Source of the DNA: Alicyclobacillus acidiphilus NBRC 100859
GTDB taxonomy: Bacteria > Bacillota > Bacilli > Alicyclobacillales > Alicyclobacillaceae
Reading direction: 5' to 3'
Length of the DNA: 64,000 nt
Assembly (NCBI RefSeq): GCF_001544355.1
Contig: NZ_BCQI01000012.1
Location: forward strand, 28,010 to 92,009
The position numbers and the translations under genes are program-made. The notes beneath the pieces are model-generated. The model did not search any database. It was not told the DNA's origin and was given only the letters and a program-made list of their open reading frames with translations. Of the stretch, positions 7,833-38,813 are shown piece by piece; position 1 is the stretch's first letter, and each line of letters opens with the position of its first letter.

Positions 7833-8411
7833 ATGAGTCTCATTCCGTATGTGGTCGAGCAAACTTCGCGCGGTGAACGCAGTTATGACATCTACTCGCG
7901 CCTTTTGAAAGACCGTATCGTCTTTCTGGGAACCGCCATTGACGACGATGTTGCAAACGCGGTGGTTGCGCAGCTCTTGTTCTTGGCAGCGGATGATCCG
8001 GACAAGGATATTCAGATGTACATAAACAGCCCTGGCGGCTCGGTTTCGGCAGGTCTGGCGATTTACGACACGATGCAGCACATCAAACCGGACGTCAGCA
8101 CGATGTGCATCGGTATGGCTGCGAGCATGGGTGCGGTTTTGCTGGCGGCAGGTGCGAAGGGCAAACGCTACGCGTTGCCGAATTCCGAAGTGATGATTCA
8201 CCAGCCGTTGGGCGGCGCGCGTGGGCAAGCTTCGGATATCGAAATTCACGCGAAACACATTTTGCGTACGCGGGAACGTTTGAACAAAATTCTTGCGGAG
8301 CGTTCCGGGCAACCGATCGAGCGGGTGGCGCAGGACACGGACCGCGACAACTTCATGTCGGCCGAGGACGCGAAGGCGTACGGGCTCATTGACGAGGTAC
8401 TATATCGCTAA
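7833..8411 (+). CDS. clpP: ATP-dependent Clp protease proteolytic subunit
   Basis: A 192-residue serine peptidase of normal ClpP length. The catalytic triad is visible: Ser in [11 protein letters not shown] (about residue 98), His in [10 protein letters not shown] (about 123) and Asp in [13 protein letters not shown] (about 172). N-terminal [25 protein letters not shown] is the standard ClpP start. It works as a tetradecamer with ClpC or ClpX chaperones. GAGGAGG precedes the ATG, and CtsR-like heptads lie upstream, which implies heat and stress induction. Confidence 0.98.
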
Positions 8412-8448
8412 ATTTGGATGCGTTGGTTGAATTGATGGAGGGACGACG

Positions 8449-9603
8449 ATGGCAGACGTAATCTATCTGGACTGGGCGGCGACAGCGCCGCTGCATCCCG
8501 CGGTTCGCGAGAAAGTGCCAGAGTGGATGGACGTCTTTGGCAATCCGTCGTCCCTTCACCGTCTTGGCATGGAAGCGGAGAACGTGCTGTCGGAAGCCCG
8601 GCGGACGATGCTGGAGAGTCTGGGCGCCCGCGGTGGACAGTTCGTGTTCACTGGCGGCGGCACGGAAGCAAACAACCTTGCCATTTTTGGGAGTGTGTTT
8701 GCGCAGCGTGATCGACATGCGCACGTCGTGACGACTGCCGTGGAACACCCGGCCGTGCTGGAAGCGTACCGCCGGCTCGAACAGCTTGGGTACGAGGTAA
8801 GCTACGTACGGCCCCGGGAAGACGGGGATTTGGATTGGACTGACGTCATTCGCGCGGTTCGCGAAGACACCGTGCTGGTGAGCGTCATGCACGTGAACAA
8901 CGAAACGGGTGCGGTGTTTCCGATTGAGCGCCTGGCGCAGGAACTGGACAAGTTCCCGCGTGTCAGGTTTCATGTCGATGGCACGCAGGCATTCGGCAAG
9001 ATTCCGTTTTCCGTTGGTGATCACGCCATCGACCTGTACGCCTGTTCGGCGCACAAGGTGGGCGGGTTGAAAGGTGTCGGCGGACTGTACATCCGTCCGC
9101 GCGTGAAGTTGGATCCGCACGTGGTCGGCGGGGGACAGGAATTCGGTTTTCGATCCGGCACCGAAAATGTCCTCGGCGCCATCGCGTTCGCGACGGCCGC
9201 CAAGGCGTCGATGGACGCGGTGCATCGGCAATTGCCGTATGCCGGCGAGCGGCGAAGGCGTTTTGTGGAAGGGCTGCGGGCGATCCCTGGGTGGAACGTG
9301 ATTGATCCGCCCAATGTGTCACCGTATATTGTGTGTGCGACGCTTCCTGGGCTGAAAGGGGAAGTGATCGTTCACGCGTTTGAAGAGCAAGGTCTGTACG
9401 TTTCAGCCGGCAGCGCGTGTTCCAGTGCCCGCAGCCGCCAGAAGCGAAGCCATGTCCTCGAAGCGATGAACATTCGCCGAGAGTGGGCGGATGCGGCTGT
9501 TCGGTTTTCGTGGCACCCCACGACGACAGATGATGAACTGAACCAGGCGCTGCAGGTGGTTGAACGCCAGAGCACGTGGCTGTTGCGAATGTTGGGAAGA
9601 TAG
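8449..9603 (+). CDS. Cysteine desulfurase (NifS/IscS class, partner of ThiI)
   Basis: A 384-residue class-V PLP enzyme. The PLP lysine lies in CSAHKVGG (about residue 200) and the active Cys in the loop SAGSACSSARS (about residue 325). It removes sulfur from cysteine as an enzyme persulfide. Its stop is 11 bases before thiI, and the pair parallels Bacillus nifZ-thiI, in which this enzyme hands sulfur to ThiI for 4-thiouridine in tRNA. No scaffold or SufU gene is adjacent, which favours the tRNA role. Confidence 0.93.
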   Translation: MADVIYLDWAATAPLHPAVREKVPEWMDVFGNPSSLHRLGMEAENVLSEARRTMLESLGARGGQFVFTGGGTEANNLAIFGSVFAQRDRHAHVVTTAVEHPAVLEAYRRLEQLGYEVSYVRPREDGDLDWTDVIRAVREDTVLVSVMHVNNETGAVFPIERLAQELDKFPRVRFHVDGTQAFGKIPFSVGDHAIDLYACSAHKVGGLKGVGGLYIRPRVKLDPHVVGGGQEFGFRSGTENVLGAIAFATAAKASMDAVHRQLPYAGERRRRFVEGLRAIPGWNVIDPPNVSPYIVCATLPGLKGEVIVHAFEEQGLYVSAGSACSSARSRQKRSHVLEAMNIRREWADAAVRFSWHPTTTDDELNQALQVVERQSTWLLRMLGR

Positions 9604-9614
9604 TGGAGGGTACA

Positions 9615-10784
9615 ATGTACGATCACATTCTCGTTCGCTTCGGCGAACTAAGTACCAAGGGTCACAACCGATCGCAGCTTGAGCAGATTTTACAACGAAA
9701 TATTCAACAGGCGGTGCAGCCTTGGCCGACCATTCGGGTCGTCCGCAAAAGCAGCCGAATCGTGGTCGAGTTAGGGAATGTGCCCGTGAAGCCGGTCATG
9801 GACCGGCTTCGCCGCGTTTTTGGTATTTCGTCGCTGTCCGCGGTGGCGCGTACGGAGTTGAGTGTTCAGGCGATCCTCGATACCGCTGTCCGGGTGTATC
9901 GGCATGAAATGCCGACGCCGGGATCGTTCAAGGTCGAGGTCCGGCGCGGCAACAAGCAGTTCGAACTCGACAGTCCAACGCTGGCGCGGGAAGTCGGCGC
10001 TGCGATTCTGCGCGACGTCGAGGGTGCAACCGTAGACGTCCACCACCCGGAGGTTCAGGTGGAAGTGGATGTTCGGGACGCCGACGCCTACGTCTTTGCC
10101 GGCAGAGTGCAAGGCGCGGGTGGATTTCCGGTTTCGATGAGCGGACGCGTCGCAGGTCTGTTGTCGGGGGGCATCGATAGTCCTGTCGCTGTCTGGAAAG
10201 CGTTGAGGCGCGGTCTCGATGTCGATCTCGTCCATTTTCATTCGTTCCCGTTCACCAGCGAGCGCGCACAGCGGAAAGTCGAGGATTTGACGAGCCTGCT
10301 TGCCGACTGGGCGGGACCGCGACGGCTGTACCTGGTCTCGCTGACTGAGGTTCAAGCCGAAATCAGACGGGAATGCCCGGAAAGTTTGCGCACGGTTCTT
10401 TTGCGGCGCATGATGTTTCGGATCGTGACGGCGATGGCGGATCGAAACAACTGGGGTGGCATTGTCACCGGCGACAGCGTCGGCCAGGTTGCCAGCCAGA
10501 CGCTGGAGGCCCTGAACGCGGTGGACGCTGTCACGCCTCTGACGGTGATCCGGCCGCTCGCCGTCGAAGACAAAGTGGATATCATTCGCATGGCGCAAGC
10601 CATCCAAACGTACGACGTCTCGATATTGCCGTACGATGACTGTTGTTCTCTATTCGCTCCGAGACGGCCGAAAACACACCCAACGCTGAAGGAAGTTACC
10701 GAGGGCGAAGCCGCGCTCGATATCGAAGGTTTGGTGCAAAGAGCGATGGATACGGTAGAAGTGAAGACCATCGCGTCGGTTTGA
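9615..10784 (+). CDS. thiI: tRNA 4-thiouridine synthase ThiI
   Basis: A 389-residue protein: an N-terminal ferredoxin-like and THUMP region (residues about 1-165) that binds tRNA, then a PP-loop ATPase with SGGIDSPVA (about residues 183-191). The C-terminal rhodanese domain of enterobacterial ThiI is absent, as in Bacillus. It adenylates U8 of tRNA and inserts sulfur from the upstream desulfurase. The ATG at 9615 follows GGAGGG by four bases and lies 12 bases after the desulfurase stop, so the two are co-transcribed. Confidence 0.96.
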   Translation: MYDHILVRFGELSTKGHNRSQLEQILQRNIQQAVQPWPTIRVVRKSSRIVVELGNVPVKPVMDRLRRVFGISSLSAVARTELSVQAILDTAVRVYRHEMPTPGSFKVEVRRGNKQFELDSPTLAREVGAAILRDVEGATVDVHHPEVQVEVDVRDADAYVFAGRVQGAGGFPVSMSGRVAGLLSGGIDSPVAVWKALRRGLDVDLVHFHSFPFTSERAQRKVEDLTSLLADWAGPRRLYLVSLTEVQAEIRRECPESLRTVLLRRMMFRIVTAMADRNNWGGIVTGDSVGQVASQTLEALNAVDAVTPLTVIRPLAVEDKVDIIRMAQAIQTYDVSILPYDDCCSLFAPRRPKTHPTLKEVTEGEAALDIEGLVQRAMDTVEVKTIASV

Positions 10785-10934
10785 CCATTTGGATTCCGTA
10801 CGGAACAGGATGTGAATGGCGCGGCACTCGAGCGGCGAGAGGTACATTTTTTCGCCATGTCGGATGTCCGGGAGAAGATTAGGGCAGGCTAGACCTGATT
10901 CGATCACGACGAATCGATATCCCCGAGTCTCGAG

Positions 10935-11192
10935 GTGAGACGGTTGCGCACGATTCGCATCTTGTTTCGGCTGTTTCGATTCCTGTCTATCGGCTTTACC
11001 ATTTGGCGGGCGTCTCGGGCGACCCGCGCGTTTTACATTGGGAGTATGCTCTGGAAGTATTTCCGCAGACGATCCGTCACCACGCCTCCACGCGTTGTCT
11101 TCACGTTTGTCGATCCGCATACCGACGCGATTTATCGTCGTCGCGGATGGCGACGCATTGCGAAAAACGCCCCTGATGACACCGACTCGTGA
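10935..11192 (+). CDS. Short Arg-rich hypothetical protein
   Basis: An 85-residue ORF rich in Arg with one hydrophobic stretch (LFRFLSIGFTIW). A GTG at 10935 or a TTG at 10944 (six bases after GAGGTG) could start it. I do not recognise a family. The flanking sequence 10785-10934 and 11193-11327 holds no other gene; the latter must carry the rsfA promoter. It may be spurious. Confidence 0.35.
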   Translation: MRRLRTIRILFRLFRFLSIGFTIWRASRATRAFYIGSMLWKYFRRRSVTTPPRVVFTFVDPHTDAIYRRRGWRRIAKNAPDDTDS

Positions 11193-29587: not shown

Positions 29588-30511
29588 ATGGTCGCAAACG
29601 AAGTGCTGTCCGTCTTGTCTGCGTACGGTATCGACGACGCGCGCGTCGATGAACCGATGGCCCGTCATACGACATGGCGGATCGGCGGAACAGCGGATTA
29701 TTTCGTCATGCCGGACTCGCTTGCCAAGTTGCAAGGCGTCGTCCGTGCAGCAAGAGATTTGAAGCTCCCGATCACGGTGATTGGCAGGGGGTCAAACGCG
29801 CTCGTTCTCGACGGCGGCATTCGCGGTATCGTCGTGAAGCTTCATGATGGATTCGCGGATATCACGGTGGACGGCACCTCCGTGATCGCAGAGGCTGGAC
29901 GATCTTACCAGTCGGCGGCGTATATCGCGATACGCCATGGATTGGCTGGTCTGGAATTCGCCACGGGCATTCCGGGATCGGTCGGCGGGGCGGTGATGAT
30001 GAACGCCGGCGCGTATGGCAAGGAGACGTGCGAGGTGCTCGAATGGGCGGACGTCATGGACATGGACGGCGAAGTCCATCGTTACACCAACGCGGATCTT
30101 CGGTTCGGTTATCGCTACAGTATTTTAAAGGACCAGTTCGGCATCGTGACGCGGGCGAAGTTTGCGCTTGTCGAAGGCGATAAGACCGCACTCTCCAACC
30201 AAGTCAAGATCTGGTCTGTCCGGCGCGCGGAGTCGCAGCCGCTGTCTTGGCCCAATTGCGGGTCCGTCTTTCGGAATCCAAATGGGACGCACGCGGGCCG
30301 GTTGATTGAAGAGGCTGGCCTGAAAGGGTTCGAACACGGTGGCGCGCAAATCAGCGAGAAACATGCAAACTTCATTATCAACGTGAAAGACGCAAAAGCC
30401 GAGGACGTTCTTTGGTTGATCCGCTACGCCCAGAACACGATCCGCGAGAAATACGGGATCGAATTAGAGACTGAGGTTCGCGTTCTCGGAGAACCGATCT
30501 CGGGGAGGTGA
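29588..30511 (+). CDS. murB: UDP-N-acetylenolpyruvoylglucosamine reductase MurB
   Basis: A 307-residue FAD enzyme of the Gram-positive type. FAD-binding segments VIGRGSNALV and GIPGSVGGAVMMNAGAYG are visible, as are PNCGSVFRNP with the catalytic Ser and the C-terminal Glu region. It reduces the enolpyruvyl product of MurA, so it acts directly after the gene that is interrupted just downstream. ATG 29588 lies behind GGAGG. Confidence 0.97.
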   Translation: MVANEVLSVLSAYGIDDARVDEPMARHTTWRIGGTADYFVMPDSLAKLQGVVRAARDLKLPITVIGRGSNALVLDGGIRGIVVKLHDGFADITVDGTSVIAEAGRSYQSAAYIAIRHGLAGLEFATGIPGSVGGAVMMNAGAYGKETCEVLEWADVMDMDGEVHRYTNADLRFGYRYSILKDQFGIVTRAKFALVEGDKTALSNQVKIWSVRRAESQPLSWPNCGSVFRNPNGTHAGRLIEEAGLKGFEHGGAQISEKHANFIINVKDAKAEDVLWLIRYAQNTIREKYGIELETEVRVLGEPISGR

Positions 30512-30516
30512 CGGGT

Positions 30517-30807
30517 GTGGATACATTACGAATTGTCGGCGGCACGCCTTTGACCGGCGAGACTCGCGTGTACGGCGCCAAAAACGCCGCGTTGCCGATC
30601 TTGGCCGCGACGGTGATGGCTTCGGGCACGAGCGTGATCGAAGACGTTCCCGAACTGGAGGATGTCCAGGTCATGCTGGAAATTCTCCAACAGTTGGGCG
30701 CCCAAGTCCACAGCCCACAAGAGAATGTGATTGAAGTCGACGCGTCGACGATTACGAGTACCAATGTTCCAGCCGATTTGATGAGAAAAATGCGTTCCCC
30801 CATGTAG
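30517..30807 (+). pseudogene. murA: murA 5' fragment (interrupted by the recombinase element)
   Basis: Codons 1-94 are typical MurA: LRIVGGTPLTGETRVYGAKNAALPILAA with the substrate-binding KN pair, ending PADLMRKMRS. The frame then enters the element and stops after PM. GTG 30517 is six bases after GGGGAGGTG and five bases after the murB stop. MurA transfers enolpyruvate to UDP-GlcNAc, the first committed step of peptidoglycan synthesis. As it stands it would make a 96-residue fragment lacking the catalytic Cys. Joined to the fragment at 37839 it gives a complete 418-residue MurA, so this is an interrupted gene rather than a decayed one. Confidence 0.93.
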
Positions 30808-30822
30808 TGTAAAGTGATTTCC
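30775..30822. other. attL: left junction of the murA element
   Basis: The core TTCC is at 30795-30798 within ATGCGTTCCCCCAT. The bases to the left are murA coding (half of attB) and those to the right are element (half of attP). Outward from the TTCC centre, the left arm pairs with the right arm found at attR, giving 10 matches in 12 positions for attB. Confidence 0.85.
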
Positions 30823-30972
30823 GCAATCTTCCCTCCTGCCCGTTTGACGACATTGAGCCGAATAGACTATCAAAATTAGTCCGATTGAACTGCGCGCATT
30901 TCAAAACCCCGCCGTATGATATGTTCCGTGACAATTCCAAGGTATGCCACGTTGGCTAGGTCAGGTGAACGT

Positions 30973-32879
30973 ATGTTAAGCGCGCACTTTGTGTTTATCG
31001 CCGTCGTAGAGACATGGTTGCTGTCCGCACAAGTGTTTTCCACACGCGAGTTCTCTCAGCTCGTGATCCAGCGATTCGCACCAGGTTTGGCATCTTGGTT
31101 CACGATTGTCCTCTTGCCATTCGGGTTTGCCGTCGATGGAGCTATCCTCAACTTCCATGTGTCGGTTGGCATACTCGGCGTGTTGTACACGACATTTTTT
31201 GTGTTGAGGACAAAGAGTTGGGAAGATACCGCGTTTGCCGTCGCGGTAAGCTACACGCTGTCGATTCTGCTTGGCTTGTTGACGAGTTTCGATGCAGCAG
31301 ACCGTTATAGCGATTTGGCGGTGTCCATCCTCACCGCAGTCATGTCCGGAATGTACGTGAACTATCGATCCGTTCACGAGAAAGCGATCCGGGACACGCA
31401 TCAGGCTGTGGAACACGATGCCTTGACCAATGCGTTAACCCGCCGCGGACTGGCGAATTGGTTAGAGCGCAGCAAATCGAGAGGCGACGACGAAGGAGTG
31501 ATTGTCTTTTGCGATCTCGACAATTTCAAATGGATCAACGACACCTGGGGTCACGACGCGGGGGATCGGGTGCTGCAAGAGTTCGTGCGGCGAATTGGCC
31601 AGGGATTGCGGGAGACTGACGCAATCGCTCGATTTGGCGGTAACGAGTATCAGATCTGGATCCCGATGAAGGATGCCGGTACGGCCGAACACATCGTCCA
31701 AACGCTGCACGCTCTTGCTACGTATGGCGCGTATCATGTTCTTCCGGAACATAAGGGCATTCATATTGGCGTGTCGATGGGTTGGACGTACGGCGCGTTT
31801 TCGGAAGAACGGGTATTTGAAGCAGATTCTGCGCTCTTGTCTGCAAAAAAGGCGGGAAAGAATCGCGTGGCCCGTTCGATGATGTCTGATACCAATCGGG
31901 TGGAAATCGACGACGCTTGCGATCCCAATCTGTACTGGCTGACCAACGTATCTCAAGCCTTGTGGAGCGGTGTTCACTATCCGTTCGTGTTGACGGACAA
32001 GTCTGGACGCATTCTTGTGGCGAATGAGGCGTACGAACATCTTGTGGGCCGCACATTCGACGAATTGCGCGGCAACAAACCGGGCATCAACAGCGCGAAG
32101 AAGACGCCCGTCAAAGTGGTGCAAGAATTGGACAATGGGAATTTCCCGACCGCGCCAACGCGAAACGAATATCGATGGCACGGCGAGATCGAATGGGCTT
32201 TTCAGCCAATTGTGAATACATACCTGCAACAGATTATCGGATTCGAAGCGCTTGTCCGACCAACATGGGGAAATGAACCGGTTGCCCTCGATACCTTTTT
32301 CCGGATTGCCGAGAAGTTTGACTTCATTTTGCAAGCGGTTGGCTGTGTTTGGAGAGCTTGTTGGACAAGCTTGAAACAATCGATTTGGCGCAGGACGTTC
32401 GGCTGTTTGTCAATGTGTACGCGAAGACCTTTGAGCAGAAGGAGCGCATGTGTTTGTGGCTGGAGCGGTTTTATCGGATGTTTCCACATACGACCTGCGT
32501 TTTTGAGATTTTGGAACACCATTTGGGCAACGTGGAGCTCGCGGCGTGGACTGATTTGAAACGTGAATTCCCGTTGATCGAACTTGCTCAGGACGATTTC
32601 GGGATTGGGGAACAAGACCTCATCCGCTTCCTGGAGGTCAAGCCCGACTGGTTGAAATTGGACAGCAGTTGGATGACGACGCTGTCGAGACATCCGGAAA
32701 GCGTATCTCTCTTGCAGGCTATTGTCGATTGGGCTGGGGCAGAGGGAATCAAGCTGATCGCAGAAGGCATCGAAACCTCGGAACAATCCTATTTTTATTC
32801 ATCGATTGGGATTGAGTACGAACAGGGGTATTTCTGGAGCGTACCGCAACGGGAAGCAGTACTGAGCGCGATACCGTAA
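30973..32879 (+). pseudogene. Membrane GGDEF-PAS-EAL protein, frameshifted within EAL
   Basis: Residues about 1-135 hold four to six membrane helices, then a GGDEF domain (about 145-310) whose motif is the degenerate GGNEY, a PAS-like region (about 330-400) and an EAL domain with EALVR, DDFG and AEGIET. The frame ends at 32559, but the EAL domain continues in another frame from 32349 to 32879. Adding one base to the T run at 32348-32350 would restore GCVLESLLDKLE and a product of about 635 residues. The cyclase is probably inactive; the EAL could hydrolyse c-di-GMP if the frame were restored. ATG 30973 follows AGGTGA. Sequencing error and phase variation are alternatives to decay. Confidence 0.85.
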
Positions 32880-32927
32880 CGACGGATCCGTCCGATTGCG
32901 ATCGCGATTTGACAAGGAGGCCATGAG

Positions 32928-34268
32928 ATGGTGCAGTTCATCAGGGGCTTGTCGATCAAAGTGAAGCTGATTGTCACCATTGGGACGTTTCTCTTCTTTT
33001 CTTCAACCGCTTTGGGTACGATCAGTTTCAATTACGCGGTGGGCAATTTTTCGAATCTCTTTCACGGACATGGCGTTGGCCTGTTCAACCAAACGTTGCA
33101 CGCGAACGCCAATCAACTGCTCACGGTCATGCTCGTCACGATCGCCGTGGAATTGATCGTTGGAGGAATTGGCGCCTATTGGATATCTTTGCAAATTACG
33201 AAGCCGATGTCAGAACTGCTGTCCAGAGTCGACAGGGTGTCGTCCGGCGATTTGACGGGCGACTTGTTGACCCTGAAACAGCGGGACGAAATCGGTCGGC
33301 TGGCCGAAGGATTTAATCATATGTTCGTCAGTCTGAAAACCGTGATCGGCGATGCGATTCGAGCTTCCCAGCATCTCGCCTCATCGTCCGAACAATTGTC
33401 GGCCAGTGCGGATCAAAGCAGCAAGGCGGCTGAACATGCTGCGGTCACGATTCAGGACCTGGCCAGCGGAATCGACGACCAATCGCGGAGTGTCAAGCAA
33501 AGCAAGGAGGCCATTCTCCATATCACCGACGAGATGACCCGAATCGCAGAAAACAGCACACAGGTGTCTGTTTCGGCAGCTGACGCGTCGGAGAAAGTAA
33601 TGGAGGGGACGCATGCCGTCGCGATCGCCCGCCAGCAAGTGGATACCATTCACGACTCCGTGGCTGACTTGGCGACCATCGCGGGAGAATTGGACGATGG
33701 TTCGAAAGAAATCGGACATATCGTGGAGATGATCACGGGTATTGCCAGTCAGACCAAGCTGCTTTCGCTCAATTCGGCGATTGAAGCCGCCCGGGCCGGG
33801 GAATATGGACGCGGCTTTGCGGTGGTGGCGAACGAAGTCCGAAAGCTGGCGGATCAGTCCGGGGAATCCGCAAAACAAATTGAAACCCTCATTCGCAAAA
33901 TTCAAGAGCAGGTGGGGCACATCGCCAATTTCGTGACCGGGTTGAAGGGGCAAATGGCTCGGGGGCTCTCTGCCATGTCCGACGCCAGCGATTCGTTTGA
34001 GCAAATCAGGTGGGCGATTGACGTTGTCTCTTGCCAGATTTCCGAAGTCAGTACGGCCGTTCAGAACACGACCGCGGACACGCAGCGACTGAAGCAGGCG
34101 TTCGTCCAGGTCGCGGAAGTCACAGAACAGACGGCAACCGCCATGCAGGAGATCGCCGCGGCGTCCGAAGAGCAGCTGGCCTCCATGGAGGAAATCGCCG
34201 CGTCGGCGTCGACATTGACCAGCATGGCGGAGCAATTGGAGGATGATATCGGGAAGTTCACTCTCTAG
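32928..34268 (+). CDS. Methyl-accepting chemotaxis-like protein
   Basis: A 446-residue protein: membrane helix at about 12-35, a very short outside loop (about 35-60) with almost no sensor domain, a second helix (about 62-88), HAMP (about 88-140) and a long MCP signalling coiled coil. The hairpin tip has [36 protein letters not shown] (split here only by description), with Lys where most have Asn in QTNLL. AAGGAGG precedes the ATG by seven bases. It lies 48 bases after the c-di-GMP gene, so the two may be co-transcribed. With such a small loop it may sense membrane or cytoplasmic state. Confidence 0.92.
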
Positions 34269-34313
34269 TTCTCTCGATCCCGCCGCCGAGATCGGGCCGC
34301 GGGAGAGGAAGGG

Positions 34314-34338
34314 AATAGGGGGCTGAAATCCCCCTATA
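34314..34338. repeat. Hairpin related to the 7-kb array, inside the murA element
   Basis: Arms ATAGGGGG and CCCCCTAT enclose the loop CTGAAAT, 45 bases after the MCP stop. Aligned with the reverse complement of the first hairpin at 7063, about 20 of 25 positions agree, including AATA, GGCTGAAA and CTAT. It could act as a transcript end but lacks a T run. Confidence 0.75.
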
Positions 34339-34385
34339 TGCCTTGAATCCACCTGGACCATCCGTCACCTGGGTTGGCTTCGTGT

Positions 34386-34662
34386 AAGGGAAGATTTGAC
34401 CGCTATGGCGTGGCAGTTGGTGGCGTGGGCGGGTCTGCGTGGTGCCATAAGGGAAGATTTGACCGCTATGGCGTGGCAGATGGTGGCGTGGGCGGGTCTG
34501 CGTGGTGCCATAAGGGAAGATTTGACCGCTATGGCGTGGCAGATGGTGGCGTGGGCGGGTCCGCGTGGTGCCATAAGGGAAGATTTGACCGCTATGGCGT
34601 GGCAGATGGTGGCGTGGGCGGGTCCGCGTGGTGCCATAAGGGAAGATTTGACCGCTATGGCG
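34386..34662. repeat. 63-bp tandem repeat, 4.4 copies
   Basis: Units start at 34386, 34449, 34512, 34575 and 34638 (the last partial), each beginning AAGGGAAGATTTGACCGC. Copies differ at only a few bases (for example CAGTTGG or CAGATGG; GGTCTGC or GGTCCGC). Since 63 is a multiple of three, open frames run through on both strands, but none has a ribosome site. Confidence 0.95.
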
Positions 34663-34670
34663 CCACCCCA

Positions 34671-34740
34671 CGCCAACTCGCGTCAACTCGCGCCAACTCG
34701 CGCCAACTCGCGCCAACCCGCGCCAACTCGCGCCAACCCG
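34671..34740. repeat. 10-bp tandem repeat CGCCAACTCG, seven copies
   Basis: Seven contiguous 10-bp units vary only at CGCC/CGTC and ACTCG/ACCCG. The period is one helical turn, like the tracts at 7021 and at the right end of the window. Confidence 0.95.
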
Positions 34741-34848
34741 CGCCTCCTCCGCCTCCTCCGCCTCCTCCGCTTCCTCCGCCTCCTCCGCTTCCTCCGCTTC
34801 CTCCGCTTCCTCCGCTTCCTCCGCTTCCTCCGCTTCCTCCGCCTCCCG
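34741..34848. repeat. 9-bp tandem repeat CGCYTCCTC, about twelve copies
   Basis: Eleven units of CGCCTCCTC or CGCTTCCTC follow without a gap and a degraded twelfth ends near 34848. The strand is strongly purine/pyrimidine asymmetric. No gene is present in 34269-34916. Confidence 0.95.
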
Positions 34849-34916
34849 TCCGCGTCCGGAAAGATGACCAAGCGGTCGCGCATAGGGTAGATACACGGAA
34901 GGGGAGTGGACGATCC

Positions 34917-35072
34917 GTGAAATCAAGGCCCTCTCTCATCTATGTGGAAGCCAACAACGTGTTTGTGCCCTTTGACGATCGCGCATCCGACTTCAAGGCC
35001 AAGTCGGCCAAGGTGTTAGGTGAGATCATCAGACGGGCGGCGACGCTGGATGATCGCGCCCACCGGTCGTAA
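34917..35072 (+). CDS. 51-residue ORF directly upstream of the recombinase
   Basis: A GTG-started ORF (residues RPSLIYVEANNVFVPF near the start, C-terminal helix-like KAKSAKVLGEIIRRAATLDDR) lies ten bases after GGAAGGGGAG. Its stop TAA overlaps the recombinase ribosome site TAAGGGGTGG, which suggests coupled translation. I recognise no family. Its size and place would fit a recombination directionality factor or other accessory protein, but this is inference only. Confidence 0.6.
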   Translation: MKSRPSLIYVEANNVFVPFDDRASDFKAKSAKVLGEIIRRAATLDDRAHRS

Positions 35073-35084
35073 GGGGTGGTTCCT

Positions 35085-36593
35085 TTGGGATTCACACAGA
35101 AGATGGACAAGGACGAGCGCACGCTCGCGCTGTACATACGCGTATCGACTGAAGAGCAGGCATCGGACGGCAACAGTCTTGCAGAACAAGAGGAGCAGTT
35201 GATCAAGTACGCTGTCGGCAACGGCTTCAACCGATACAAGGTGTATCGAGACGACGGCTACAGCGCGAAACATCTCGATCGCCCAGCCATGAGGGAGTTG
35301 CGAAACGATATCGCGAACGGCCTGATTGCCGGGGTCGTCACGACCCGCCTGGATCGCTTGACCAGGAAAGTCAGCGATTTTGCCCGCATGGTTGACGAAA
35401 TGAACGATCACGACGTGTTCTACCGTGCCACGCGACAGAACTTCGAAATCAGCACGGCGATGGGCAAACTGATGGCCAATATCCTATCCGCGATCGCGGA
35501 GTTTGAACGAGAGTTGATTGCGGAGCGCGTCTACGAGAACCTCTATGCGATGGCGAAGTCCGCCAAGCTGCCGATGAAGCCTGCTTTCGGCTACGATTCC
35601 GTCGACGGACAGCTGGTAGTGAATCCTGAAGAGGCAAAATGGGTGCGCAAGATGGCTGATATGCTGCTCTCGGGACGCGGCACCATGGACGTCGTTCAGA
35701 TGCTGAACAAACATGGCGTCCTGTCGAAGACGGGGAGGTTGTGGAACCCGAATTCCATCCGCACGTTGTTCCGCAATGAAAGCCTCATCGGCAAGTACGT
35801 GTGGAATCAGCGCGCGGGAACCGGCAAAGGTCGCAAGCGTCGTGACGAACGGGATTGGATAGAGATTGAGCAGCATCACGAGCCGTTGCTCTCTGTGGAA
35901 GAGTTCGAACGGATCAACGAAATCATTTCGTCGCGCCGCGCGTTGCCTGCCCGTTCGCGCGGCAGGGCGCGTTTATTGAGCGGGATCGCGAAGTGCGGCT
36001 TCTGCGGCGGACCGATGCATGGCACGTGGCATGTTTACAACGTCGCCTCTGGAAAAAAACGCGTGAAGACGTATAAATGCGGAACCTATTTGGCCAATCG
36101 TTCATGCCCATACATCAACCGTGTCTCATGCGACGATCTCGACGCCTACGTGATCGCTCAGTTGATGAAGATGGCCGATTCGGGTCCTGCCACGTTCGAA
36201 GCGTCCATTCCGCCGGACGACGCCCCTTGGCAGGACAGGATCGCGCAGATGAAACGGTCCATCAAGCAAGACGACGAACGCGTGCAACGATTGTTTGACG
36301 CGCTGGCTCTCGGCGTGATTCGACCGGACGAGTTCTCGTCGCAGAAGGCCCGAATCGAAATCCAGCGGAACCAAAAGGAGGCGGAGTTGGAACGGCTTCT
36401 TCGGTTGTCCGAGAACAATGACCCGGGACTCTTCCAACATGAATTCAAAAACCGCCTGCAGCGCCTGCGGGAAAACCTGGATGGGGATTTTGATCTCCAG
36501 CGGCTGGCGGTCCTGCAATTGGTTCACGAAGTGCGCGTATTCCGCGAGGACTTTCGGAAGGAGCCGGAAGTCCAGATTGTGTATAAACTATAA
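35085..36593 (+). CDS. Large serine recombinase (SpoIVCA/integrase type)
   Basis: About 502 residues. The N-terminal resolvase domain starts ALYIRVSTEEQA with catalytic Ser (about residue 21), and DRLTRKVSD and AEFERELIAERV are family motifs. A recombinase domain follows (PAFGYD, then LFRNESLIGKYVWN), then a zinc ribbon (KCGFCGG and YKCGTYLANRSCP, about 305-345) and a C-terminal coiled coil (about 385-470). It cuts with a two-base stagger and joins att sites without homology. It should act on the dyads at 30795 and 37835. TTG 35085 follows AAGGGGTGG by five bases; GTG 35076 and ATG 35103 are alternatives. Confidence 0.95.
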   Translation: MGFTQKMDKDERTLALYIRVSTEEQASDGNSLAEQEEQLIKYAVGNGFNRYKVYRDDGYSAKHLDRPAMRELRNDIANGLIAGVVTTRLDRLTRKVSDFARMVDEMNDHDVFYRATRQNFEISTAMGKLMANILSAIAEFERELIAERVYENLYAMAKSAKLPMKPAFGYDSVDGQLVVNPEEAKWVRKMADMLLSGRGTMDVVQMLNKHGVLSKTGRLWNPNSIRTLFRNESLIGKYVWNQRAGTGKGRKRRDERDWIEIEQHHEPLLSVEEFERINEIISSRRALPARSRGRARLLSGIAKCGFCGGPMHGTWHVYNVASGKKRVKTYKCGTYLANRSCPYINRVSCDDLDAYVIAQLMKMADSGPATFEASIPPDDAPWQDRIAQMKRSIKQDDERVQRLFDALALGVIRPDEFSSQKARIEIQRNQKEAELERLLRLSENNDPGLFQHEFKNRLQRLRENLDGDFDLQRLAVLQLVHEVRVFREDFRKEPEVQIVYKL

Positions 36594-36700
36594 TTCCGCA
36601 TCCATGTTCTGAGCGGCCCATTCGGAGCGAGGGGTGCTTCGGTGGTATACTGTGTATCGACGAATATGGAAGCAGACATATAGAGCTAGGAGAGATTCCG

Positions 36701-37684
36701 ATGTACGAAGTCTGTGTAATTGGTGCCGGTCCATGCGGATTGGCTGTTTCGGCCGCTTTGCAGCAGCGCAATATCGAACATGTAGTCTTGGAAAAATCAT
36801 GCATCGCTTCGACGATATATCGTTTTCCGACTCAAATGATTTTTAATTCATCGCCAAATCTCTTGGAAATTGGCGGTATACCTTTTTATACGAACGCGAC
36901 GAAACCGACCAGGCAGGAGGCGTTGACATACTATCGCACCGTTGTCGATCGCCTAAACCTGCCTGTCCGACAGTACGAGACCGTGACGCAAGTATCGCGC
37001 GATGAATCGACAGGGTACTTTCACATCTCATCGAAGACCGCGTCGGGCTTGGAGCGCGAGCTTCTGGCGAAACGCGTGGTCGTCGCGACTGGCTACTTCG
37101 ACAATCCGAACCTTCTCGGCGTCGAAGGTGAAGACCTGCCGCACGTGCATCACTATTACTCTGACCCGCACCTGTTTTACGGACAGCGGGTGGTTGTCGT
37201 CGGAGGCACGAATTCTGCCGCGGAAGCCGTGATCGAACTGTATCGCGTCGGGGCGAATGTCAGGCTCGTTCACCGCGGCGAAGGATTGTCGCCGAAGATT
37301 AAACCGTGGGTGCTGCCGGAGATCAACAGTCTCATCAACAAAAATCTCATCGAGTACGACTTTCAATCGAGGGTCGTCCGCATTACGCCGACGTCAGTTC
37401 ATGTTCATACACCCTCTGGAGCGAAGGAATTCGAGGTCGATCACGTTCTCGCCTTGACCGGATTTCATCCGAACGTGTCCTTTCTGCAGCAGATGGGAGT
37501 CCACGTCGATTCGGAAACCGGTGTTCCCGAACACGATGAACGCACCTACGAGACGAACGTACCAGGGCTGTTCGTGGCTGGTGTCGTCGTATCTGGATAC
37601 GACGCAAACCGGATTTTTATCGAAACAGGGCGTTTTCACGGAGAAGCTATCGTCCAGTCGATTGTTGAAGCGGTGACAATCTGA
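36701..37684 (+). CDS. Bdr/YpdA-type bacillithiol disulfide reductase flavoprotein
   Basis: A 327-residue FAD/NAD(P) oxidoreductase. FAD-binding GAGPCG at the N-terminus carries the Cys (residue 12) conserved in YpdA/Bdr, NAD(P)-binding GGTNSAAEA is at about 170, and the C-terminal FAD segment GLFVAGVVVSGYDANRIFIETGRFHG is intact. Bdr reduces oxidised bacillithiol with NADPH. GGAGAG precedes the ATG by eight bases, and TATACT at 36646 could be its -10. It lies inside the element as the last gene before attR, while bshC for the same thiol lies at 15 kb. Confidence 0.88.
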   Translation: MYEVCVIGAGPCGLAVSAALQQRNIEHVVLEKSCIASTIYRFPTQMIFNSSPNLLEIGGIPFYTNATKPTRQEALTYYRTVVDRLNLPVRQYETVTQVSRDESTGYFHISSKTASGLERELLAKRVVVATGYFDNPNLLGVEGEDLPHVHHYYSDPHLFYGQRVVVVGGTNSAAEAVIELYRVGANVRLVHRGEGLSPKIKPWVLPEINSLINKNLIEYDFQSRVVRITPTSVHVHTPSGAKEFEVDHVLALTGFHPNVSFLQQMGVHVDSETGVPEHDERTYETNVPGLFVAGVVVSGYDANRIFIETGRFHGEAIVQSIVEAVTI

Positions 37685-37722
37685 GGCATCGGCCTGCTGC
37701 CAAGCGACCGCAGGACGACGGC

Positions 37723-37756
37723 TCCTTTCCCACTGGTCCAGCGGGAAAGGGGCTGT
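37723..37756 (+). terminator. Terminator-like hairpin after the flavoprotein gene
   Basis: GCTCCTTTCCC and GGGAAAGGGGC pair around a ten-base loop, followed by a weak T run (TGTTTGCGTT). It would close the element's last transcript 80 bases before the murA 3' fragment. Confidence 0.55.
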
Positions 37757-37807
37757 TTGCGTTGCGGCTGACAATGGCCGACGAACGTGGTGGCTCAACG
37801 CGCATGG

Positions 37808-37856
37808 TGCACGAATCTGTTTAGCGCAGATGCCTTCCTCCATATTTCTGATGGGC
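37808..37856. other. attR: right junction of the murA element
   Basis: The core TTCC is at 37835-37838 within ATGCCTTCCTCCAT. The left side (ACGAATCTGTTTAGCGCAG) is element and pairs imperfectly with the element bases right of attL, giving 12 matches in positions 5-23 from the TTCC centre for attP. The right side is murA coding (half of attB). Confidence 0.85.
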
Positions 37857-38813
37857 CCGTTGTTGGCCCGGTTCGGCGAAGTCATCCTCAGCAAGCCAGG
37901 CGGCTGTGTGATTGGACAGCGCCCAATCGATTTCCATTTGCGAGGAATGCGCGCACTTGGCGCCGACATTCGCGAAGAGCACGGCTACATCCAGTGTACG
38001 GCTCGCCGACTGGCGGGCACTTCCATCACGCTCGATTTCCCGTCGGTTGGCGCGACGGAAAATATGCTGATGGCGGCGGCATTGGCCGACGGCGAGACCG
38101 TGATCGAGAATGCTGCGCGGGAGCCCGAAGTGGAGGACCTGGCAAATTATCTGATTGCGTGCGGAGCGAAGATCGAAGGAGCCGGCAGGGACACCGTGGT
38201 GGTGCGCGGGTGTTCTCGATTGTCCGGAACGCGCTACCGGATCATACCGGATCGGATTGTCACTGGCACCATCATGCTTGCCGCAGCGGCGACGCGCGGC
38301 GATGTGACGCTCTATGGCACGTGTCCGGAGCACCTGGGCGCCGTCATTCAGAAACTCCGGGATTCGGGTGTCCGAGTGGACGTCGACCGTGATATAATCA
38401 GGGTCAGATGTGAGGATACCCCGAATGCGGTCGATTTTCGCACGGCCCCGTTTCCTGGATTCCCAACCGATTTACAAGCGCCGTTCATGGCCTTCTTGGC
38501 GACTGCGCGTGGCACGAGCGTCATTCACGAGAGTGTTTTCGAAGCCCGATTCAAACATGTCGACGAACTGCTTCGCATGGGCGCAGATATCTCGGTGGAT
38601 CTGCGAACGGCCATTGTCCGCGGAGTTCGCCAACTGTCTGGAGCGACCGTGAAGGCGTCCGATCTTCGCGGGGGCGCAGCCCTCCTGGTGGCGGCTTTGG
38701 CCGCGCAAGGGGAGTCGGAGGTCGAAGGCGTCTACCATATCGATCGCGGTTATCAATTCATAGAGACACAGTTGTCTGCGCTTGGCGCAAACGTGGAGCG
38801 AATAGACGTCTAG
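37830..38813 (+). pseudogene. murA: murA 3' fragment (codons 95-418)
   Basis: From the core onward the frame reads SSIFLMGPLLARFGEVILSKPGGCVIGQRPIDFH, here described as the normal MurA continuation with the catalytic Cys in GGCVIG, and runs to a normal C-terminus (HIDRGYQFIETQLSALGANVE). The ATG at 37830 comes from the element side and has no ribosome site, so separate expression is unlikely. The frame is fully open with no decay over 324 codons, which implies either recent interruption or selection through periodic re-joining. In the joined gene the Cys is residue 117, as in Bacillus MurA. Confidence 0.93.

Follow-up and report, generated by a model that had tools for sequence, protein, structure and literature searches.

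In a 64,000-nucleotide stretch of the genome of Alicyclobacillus acidiphilus NBRC 100859 (contig NZ_BCQI01000012.1; hereafter the window), the murA gene of the division and cell-wall (dcw) cluster is split by an intervening element of 7,040 bp that encodes its own large serine recombinase, and joining the two murA parts at the short sequence they share gives back one complete reading frame. The element is probably cut out by this recombinase at a two-base TC core, which would restore the dcw murA; the likely setting is the sporulating mother cell, as for skin in B. subtilis. The parts of this explanation differ in strength: that the recombinase system restores murA is very likely, while the sporulation timing, which is drawn from analogy with known elements and from the pattern of retention, is likely to a lesser degree.

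Split murA and Its Rejoining

The murA frame begins at 30517, is interrupted at the TTCC at 30795 and resumes at the TTCC at 37835, and the intervening unit occupies positions 30795–37834 between the two parts. The features concerned are as follows:

30517–30798, forward strand: murA 5′ part, through the common TTCC, with a GTG start and an alternative start at 30508 (open reading frame (ORF) and family scans)
37835–38813, forward strand: murA 3′ part, listed as an ORF from the ATG at 37830, that ATG being element-end sequence (ORF and family scans)
30771–30822, forward strand: left attachment region (attL), with the common TTCC at 30795–30798 and the predicted crossover dinucleotide TC at 30796–30797
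37811–37862, forward strand: right attachment region (attR), with the common TTCC at 37835–37838 and the predicted crossover dinucleotide TC at 37836–37837
35076–36593, forward strand: large serine recombinase of 505 aa with Resolvase, Recombinase and Zn-ribbon domains; ATG at 35103 is a possible start

When the halves are joined at the common TTCC, which is the final base of codon 93 and the whole of codon 94, a frame of 418 codons without any stop is obtained, with the seam MRKMRSSIFLMGPLL and the catalytic Cys at 117. Both parts belong to the EPSP synthase/MurA family and abut on its profiles, at positions 3–89 and 90–415 in Pfam and at 2–95 and 94–416 in NCBIfam. A sequence-only reading made earlier on this DNA had claimed a cut after codon 94 by a 7,040-bp unit, a rejoined gene of 418 codons with Cys 117, and a large serine recombinase of the unit's own; the frames, the junction and the domains bear these claims out. 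Its further claim that nothing had decayed holds for the murA halves and the recombinase, and does not hold for the cargo as a whole, in which a GGDEF-EAL gene lies in two frames. In databases, the 3′ part has been entered as a MurA of 329 aa (P0040, P0043), and it appears that the split has so far escaped notice in known genomes, that of A. acidocaldarius among them.

Distribution among Related Genomes

In a search of 15 genus genomes, a recombinase 45–53% identical to that of the window was found in 8 of the 14 others, weaker matches of 26–34% being left out of the count. These eight include A. acidocaldarius, A. mali, A. fructus, A. hesperidum, A. sacchari and A. vulcanalis, together with G002 and G004, and in every one of them the recombinase sits between the dcw murA parts, at the identical codon, with ypdA adjoining. 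Their elements are only 2.8–2.9 kb long and consist of ypdA, a conserved ORF of about 52 aa and the recombinase, in that order; in the window, the recombinase precedes ypdA. The swap of order could have come about if the element once stood in tandem, as it does in A. sacchari (described below), and a deletion followed. The family search of 41 genomes added one member of another genus (G029), in which murA is split at the same codon by an element of about 9 kb with other cargo, whose recombinase is 48% identical to that of the window and whose stretch gives no ypdA match. Instead of ypdA, the G029 element (L084 13432–18045) holds an ORF of 1538 codons which, judged from its sequence, is P-type-ATPase-like.

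The joined murA frame is open in all ten genomes (the window, the eight genus relatives and G029), and the recombinase encoded by the element is likewise intact in 10/10. Decay of either murA half in relatives, which the sequence-only reading had named as evidence against itself, was searched for, and none was found among 11 split or broken copies. A split at one murA codon in ten genomes is beyond chance, as are the TC-centred dyads described below. An assembly artefact was considered and is ruled out, since the identical codon is split in ten genomes, in some of them within contigs of about 3 Mb.

The dcw murA is uninterrupted in five genus genomes (G003, G005, G006, G007 and G013), and the dcw MurA of G013 is 99.8% identical to an A. 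acidoterrestris entry. In a class-level draw of 398 genomes, with three candidates scored per genome, four further genomes carried a recombinase at 34–38%; tblastn with murA queries found no murA in the stretches around three of them (G326, G220 and G075, with G287 left out), nor around the Brevibacillus locus L101. Among the 80 named recombinase loci listed, 3 (L098–L100, all Alicyclobacillus) have murA parts on both flanks, L135 has an intact murA nearby, and the other 76 have no murA match. No intervening element of murA was found in the open PMC literature, a scope outside which most subscription papers lie.

Descent and Selection

The tree built from ftsA and the 3′ part of MurA has a branch (93/92) with the five intact genomes alone on one side; the genus genomes with a split murA, ten if A. 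sendaiensis (G012) is counted among them, group together at 81/85, nine of them without the window group at 96/96, and G029 stands on a long branch at the drawn root. In the recombinase tree, the acidocaldarius and hesperidum groups fall together (100/99), with the window and G029 outside and their forks open; this tree repeats the host groups, and the two trees agree in outline. They fit a single acquisition before the genus groups separated, which G029 may share.

Selection could be measured in two groups only. The ratio of nonsynonymous to synonymous substitution (dN/dS) is 0.056–0.122 for the joined murA (18 pairs of split species, within the two groups), and 0.036–0.126 and 0.046–0.124 for the halves taken separately (two groups); the species with intact murA give 0.027–0.088 (8 of 10 pairs with finite dS), and the recombinase and ypdA give 0.107–0.146 and 0.074–0.135 (13 pairs each). 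That is to say, the murA halves, the recombinase and ypdA are under purifying selection in both measurable groups. Moreover, within each pair the synonymous distances of murA and the recombinase are of comparable magnitude, from 0.36/0.37 (G001–G002) to the widest gap of 0.45/0.84 (G004–G011), as expected of shared descent. It follows from the purifying selection and the agreement of the trees that the composite murA gene is very likely made and used. A gene left split and unused would not show such selection, and simple disruption of murA is thus unlikely.

Attachment Sites and Possible Traces of Excision

The block common to attL and attR at the seam varies by species (TTCC, GGTC, GGTCC or TCC), and its common part is TC, the first two bases of codon 94. 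When rebuilt, the window's attP and attB are imperfect dyads centred on TC, with 12 of 25 positions in each, and shifts of one to four bases bring the score to 2–7 of 22. Nine of the ten elements were scored, the core of G029 being read by eye, and the TC-centred dyads reach 9–18 of 25; in the attP of G009, the neighbouring register scores one higher. The att sites thus have a trait of large serine integrases, namely attB and attP as imperfect dyads around a 2-bp core.

Possible traces of excision are found in two assemblies. In A. sacchari (G011), the element is present twice, with 2,805 bp identical between the copies and an exact attP at their junction, which is what a circle or its re-insertion would give. 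This tandem lies at L028, at about 8090–11097 (reversed strand coordinates), and between its second copy and attR there are 96 N and a repeated end. In A. sendaiensis (G012), one contig ends at the left core and another begins at the right core, and neither recombinase nor ypdA was found in this assembly. An A. sendaiensis recombinase (P0006) lies on a contig of 2,857 bp, about the size of the element in the sister species (2,843–2,877 bp), and this contig presumably belongs to the same assembly as G012.

Protein databases were searched for composites, the best approximately 8,000 candidates (most shared words) being scored in each search and all 60 protein entries compared with all composites. 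The entries nearest to the A. acidocaldarius composite are 3′ parts of 318–329 aa, 92–96% identical, and its full-length matches reach at most 72%, the best from A. acidoterrestris; for the window composite, its own 327-aa part is listed and full-length proteins reach at most 78%. Excision in vivo is predicted from the comparison of genomes together with these assembly traces. The earlier description of the unit as an excisable serine-recombinase element is strongly supported by the same codon in ten genomes, trees that agree in outline, selection on both halves and an attP junction in one assembly.

Second murA and the Linkage of ypdA

For the essentiality of murA, the sequence-only reading had offered three ways out, namely a paralogue, a mixed population, or excision at a defined time such as cortex or germ-cell-wall synthesis. 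Timed excision is likely, and the paralogue exists: the genome search gave a second, intact murA on contig C73 (L001), beside a DUF1779 (ywmB-like) gene, and the split copy is therefore not the sole source of MurA. Such a second murA, 47–50% identical to the window's 3′ part, is present in all 15 genus genomes, each of which also has a dcw-type match, and in 13 of the 15 spoIIID is found on its contig at a distance of no more than about 8 kb; in B. subtilis, ywmB and spoIIID are both neighbours of murAA. A third MurA-like protein of the window genome (contig C27, L003 95–1390) has PGGD in place of the catalytic PGGC (Asp for Cys), presumably as in naturally fosfomycin-insensitive MurA, and an aroA-like gene lies on contig C15, both names being judged from the sequences.

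In the nine genus genomes that have both, the element is the only place of ypdA, the two copies in A. sacchari being the tandem. Outside any such element, ypdA occurs in G003 and G013, and none was found in G005, G006, G007 and G012. The absence of ypdA from the finds in G005, G006 and G007, whose dcw murA is intact, means that the enzyme is not required genus-wide. A sole ypdA within the element may bind the host to it: permanent loss of the element would remove the only ypdA, and this may explain the lack of precise losses in this set of species.

Content of the Element

The remaining features of the window element are the following:

30916–32879, forward strand: GGDEF-EAL (diguanylate cyclase/phosphodiesterase-like) cargo gene in two frames, 30916–32559 and 32349–32879 (ORF list, family scans)
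32928–34268, forward strand: methyl-accepting chemotaxis protein cargo, HAMP and MCPsignal (ORF list, family scan)
34854–34884, forward strand: conserved block GTCCGGmAA-N18-CATA, candidate promoter (comparison; predicted function)
34917–35072, forward strand: 51-aa ORF, candidate recombination directionality factor (counterparts directly upstream of the recombinase in 10/10 elements)
36701–37684, forward strand: ypdA, YpdA-family putative bacillithiol disulfide reductase, the sole ypdA found in this genome (family scan)

The two overlapping frames of the GGDEF-EAL gene represent either frameshifted cargo or a sequencing error, and the recombinase of the same element is intact. Direct repeats at 34374–34850 (GGAAGATTTGACCGCTATGGCG-type, then CCTCCGC-type runs) lie directly upstream of the small ORF, and none were seen in the elements of the relatives. 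Apart from the integrase-type recombinase, neither the window element nor the 2.8-kb elements showed any recognisable phage structural or replication genes. A phage origin was considered and set aside for want of a close viral or phage recombinase: the best stands at 25% (4 loci), and none of at least 60% occurs among 1,347 records, with 28.5% among the matches listed.

The small ORF stands directly upstream of the recombinase in all ten elements, mostly abutting or overlapping it. By place and size it is predicted to be a recombination directionality factor, and in this it recalls GirX and the directionality factors reported for SP-beta and the C. difficile skin in the available part of PMC5595907. 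Upstream of it, the block GTCCGGmAA-N18-CATA recurs with the same spacing in 10/10 elements (GTTCGG in G014). Among the genus's own sporulation genes, dpaA has CACC-N16-CATAnnnTA as its site, the two CATA boxes of spoIIID lie 15 apart, and the small acid-soluble spore protein (SASP) genes have CACAmTA or CATACTA boxes; in B. subtilis, spoIIID, dpaA and the SASP genes depend on sigma-E, sigma-K and sigma-G, respectively. The upstream block matches none of these sites along its full length; a role as a sporulation promoter is possible. An inverted repeat upstream of the small ORF (CCCTCCCG...CGGGAGGG; L029, L030, L031, L033 and L028) would hide its Shine–Dalgarno sequence in read-through mRNA, and a transcript starting inside the repeat loop would leave it exposed, so that the repeat could silence the operon under dcw transcription. 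This hairpin is clear in G001, G008, G010, G014 and G011; in the window, whose element lacks this repeat, and in G002 (short stretch), G004, G009 and G029, it is weak, different or absent.

Proposed Explanation and Its Alternatives

During growth, the element would remain within the dcw murA, with the cell wall supplied by the second murA next to the ywmB-like gene. Then, at a defined moment, the recombinase, assisted by the small protein encoded upstream of it, would recombine attL with attR, and the products would be attB, with the murA of the dcw operon made whole, and a circle with attP. The additional MurA would feed the synthesis of the cortex and the germ-cell wall. If the cut is made in a cell that dies, the germ line would retain the element, and this retention would be aided by the element holding the only ypdA of the genome. 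Excision in vivo, what the small ORF does, and in which cells and when the cut is made are inferred. A more pointed form of the explanation has about an even chance of being right: a domesticated 2.8-kb element would act as a DNA switch that silences the dcw murA in growth, releases it only in terminal cells for the spore wall, and is inherited by way of the sole ypdA. At 2.8 kb, it would be the smallest developmental excision unit known to us.

Several observations weigh against excision timed to sporulation, or limit its reach. We know of no report of murA as a sporulation-specific gene; the enzyme serves all peptidoglycan, and a second copy is present. A CATA box is present in the block that precedes the recombinase operon, yet this block gives no full-length match to sigma-E, sigma-K or sigma-G, and its exact pattern occurs at 26 places in 51 genomes, 10 in elements and 16 outside (reversed control pattern, 6). 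For the small ORF, no PHROGs or Pfam family was found at a meaningful score in the 3 of 10 scanned, and its constraint is weaker, with dN/dS of 0.13–0.50 (11 pairs, G011 left out). The window itself joins the other split species only at 81/85, and its dS is saturated, the joined murA giving 0.063 against G011 at a dS of 2.8. Another recombinase labelled A. sendaiensis (P0003) lies on a contig of 129,775 bp, so the broken assembly is not a rule of the species. Finally, the protein searches gave no full-length MurA near the composite of any split species, which means that the sequenced cells mostly carry the element; this is expected if excision is limited to cells that leave no descendants, and also if excision is merely rare.

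One alternative is a random, reversible switch, in which excision and re-insertion at a low rate in any cell would give mixed populations with one or two active MurA copies and no link to sporulation. The A. sacchari attP and tandem and the broken A. sendaiensis contigs, which come from cultures of unrecorded stage, would suit it, as would a promoter block that does not fully fit the sporulation sigma factors, and with the second murA both states are viable. Yet no composite MurA of a split species appeared in the protein search, those deposited assemblies of the clade that were seen have the element in place, excised lines would lose their only ypdA, and the elements of this kind known from spore formers are timed to sporulation (PMC4191935, PMC5595907, in their available parts). 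A random switch is accordingly unlikely, though it is the strongest of the competitors. It is far less probable that the two murA parts are translated into two chains which together form an active enzyme, with no need of excision. Selection on both halves would then persist, the 3′ part is databased as a 329-aa MurA, and all ten split genomes have an ATG in frame, two codons before SSIFL; this ATG, however, belongs to the attP dyad (CATGGGG-TC-CCCCATG in G001), and the recombination site thus accounts for it. Moreover, nine sequences have no Shine–Dalgarno sequence at normal spacing, and the GGAG of G002 and G010 stands one base before the ATG, which is too close. The 5′ fragment is variable in its tail and stop, and an intact recombinase under selection would have no role.

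Least probable of all, by a narrow step, is plain integration, with a mobile element using murA as its attB, tolerated thanks to the second murA, and the restored gene without function. The variable cargo would agree with it (GGDEF-EAL and the chemotaxis protein in the window, the large P-type-ATPase-like ORF in G029, ypdA in the genus elements), and so would the second murA in 15/15 genus genomes. What tells against it is that the halves are open and under purifying selection although the recombinases differ by up to half, and that none of the 11 split or broken copies has a decayed half. Excision by the element's own recombinase, restoring the dcw murA in the course of sporulation, is hence the explanation preferred here.

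Comparison with Known Systems

Programmed excision is known for genes of sporulation regulators, of the spore envelope or of dipicolinate synthesis. The murA element resembles the skin element in sigK of B. subtilis in its very short core, its own serine recombinase and the in-frame restoration of the host gene; however, skin is a 48-kb prophage-like element in a sigma-factor gene (PMC13141910, available part), whereas the murA element has 2.8–7 kb (9 kb in G029) and no phage genes were seen in it. For skin, excision and timing are proven, and for the murA element both are predicted, its target being a cell-wall enzyme gene with a paralogue. The gin element in gerE of B. cereus ATCC 10987 is also non-prophage and rebuilds a sporulation gene by means of a serine recombinase and a small directionality factor (GirC and GirX), but it has 28.6 kb and three recombinases, and its target is a regulator gene of 225 bp (PMC5595907, available part). 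In SP-beta/spsM, vfbin/spoVFB and vrin/spoVR, excision in the mother cell rebuilds the host gene, and the SP-beta recombinase needs a small partner; these differ in being prophages or prophage-derived, with spore-envelope or sporulation genes as targets (PMC4191935, available part). Within the same genus, the phage integrated in sigK of A. acidoterrestris has a serine recombinase beside its site and a short core, and it differs as a phage and in its target; the available part of the paper on it makes no mention of murA splitting (PMC13141910).

Compared with these systems, the new aspects are the target gene murA and the unusually small element. Excision would here act on the enzyme that commits precursors to peptidoglycan synthesis in its first step, within the division and cell-wall cluster itself, and, if the explanation is true, a DNA rearrangement separates the supply of precursors for the growth wall from that for the spore wall. 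In addition, a near-minimal unit of a recombinase, a small partner and one host enzyme would offer a simple test bed for the domestication and upkeep of such elements.

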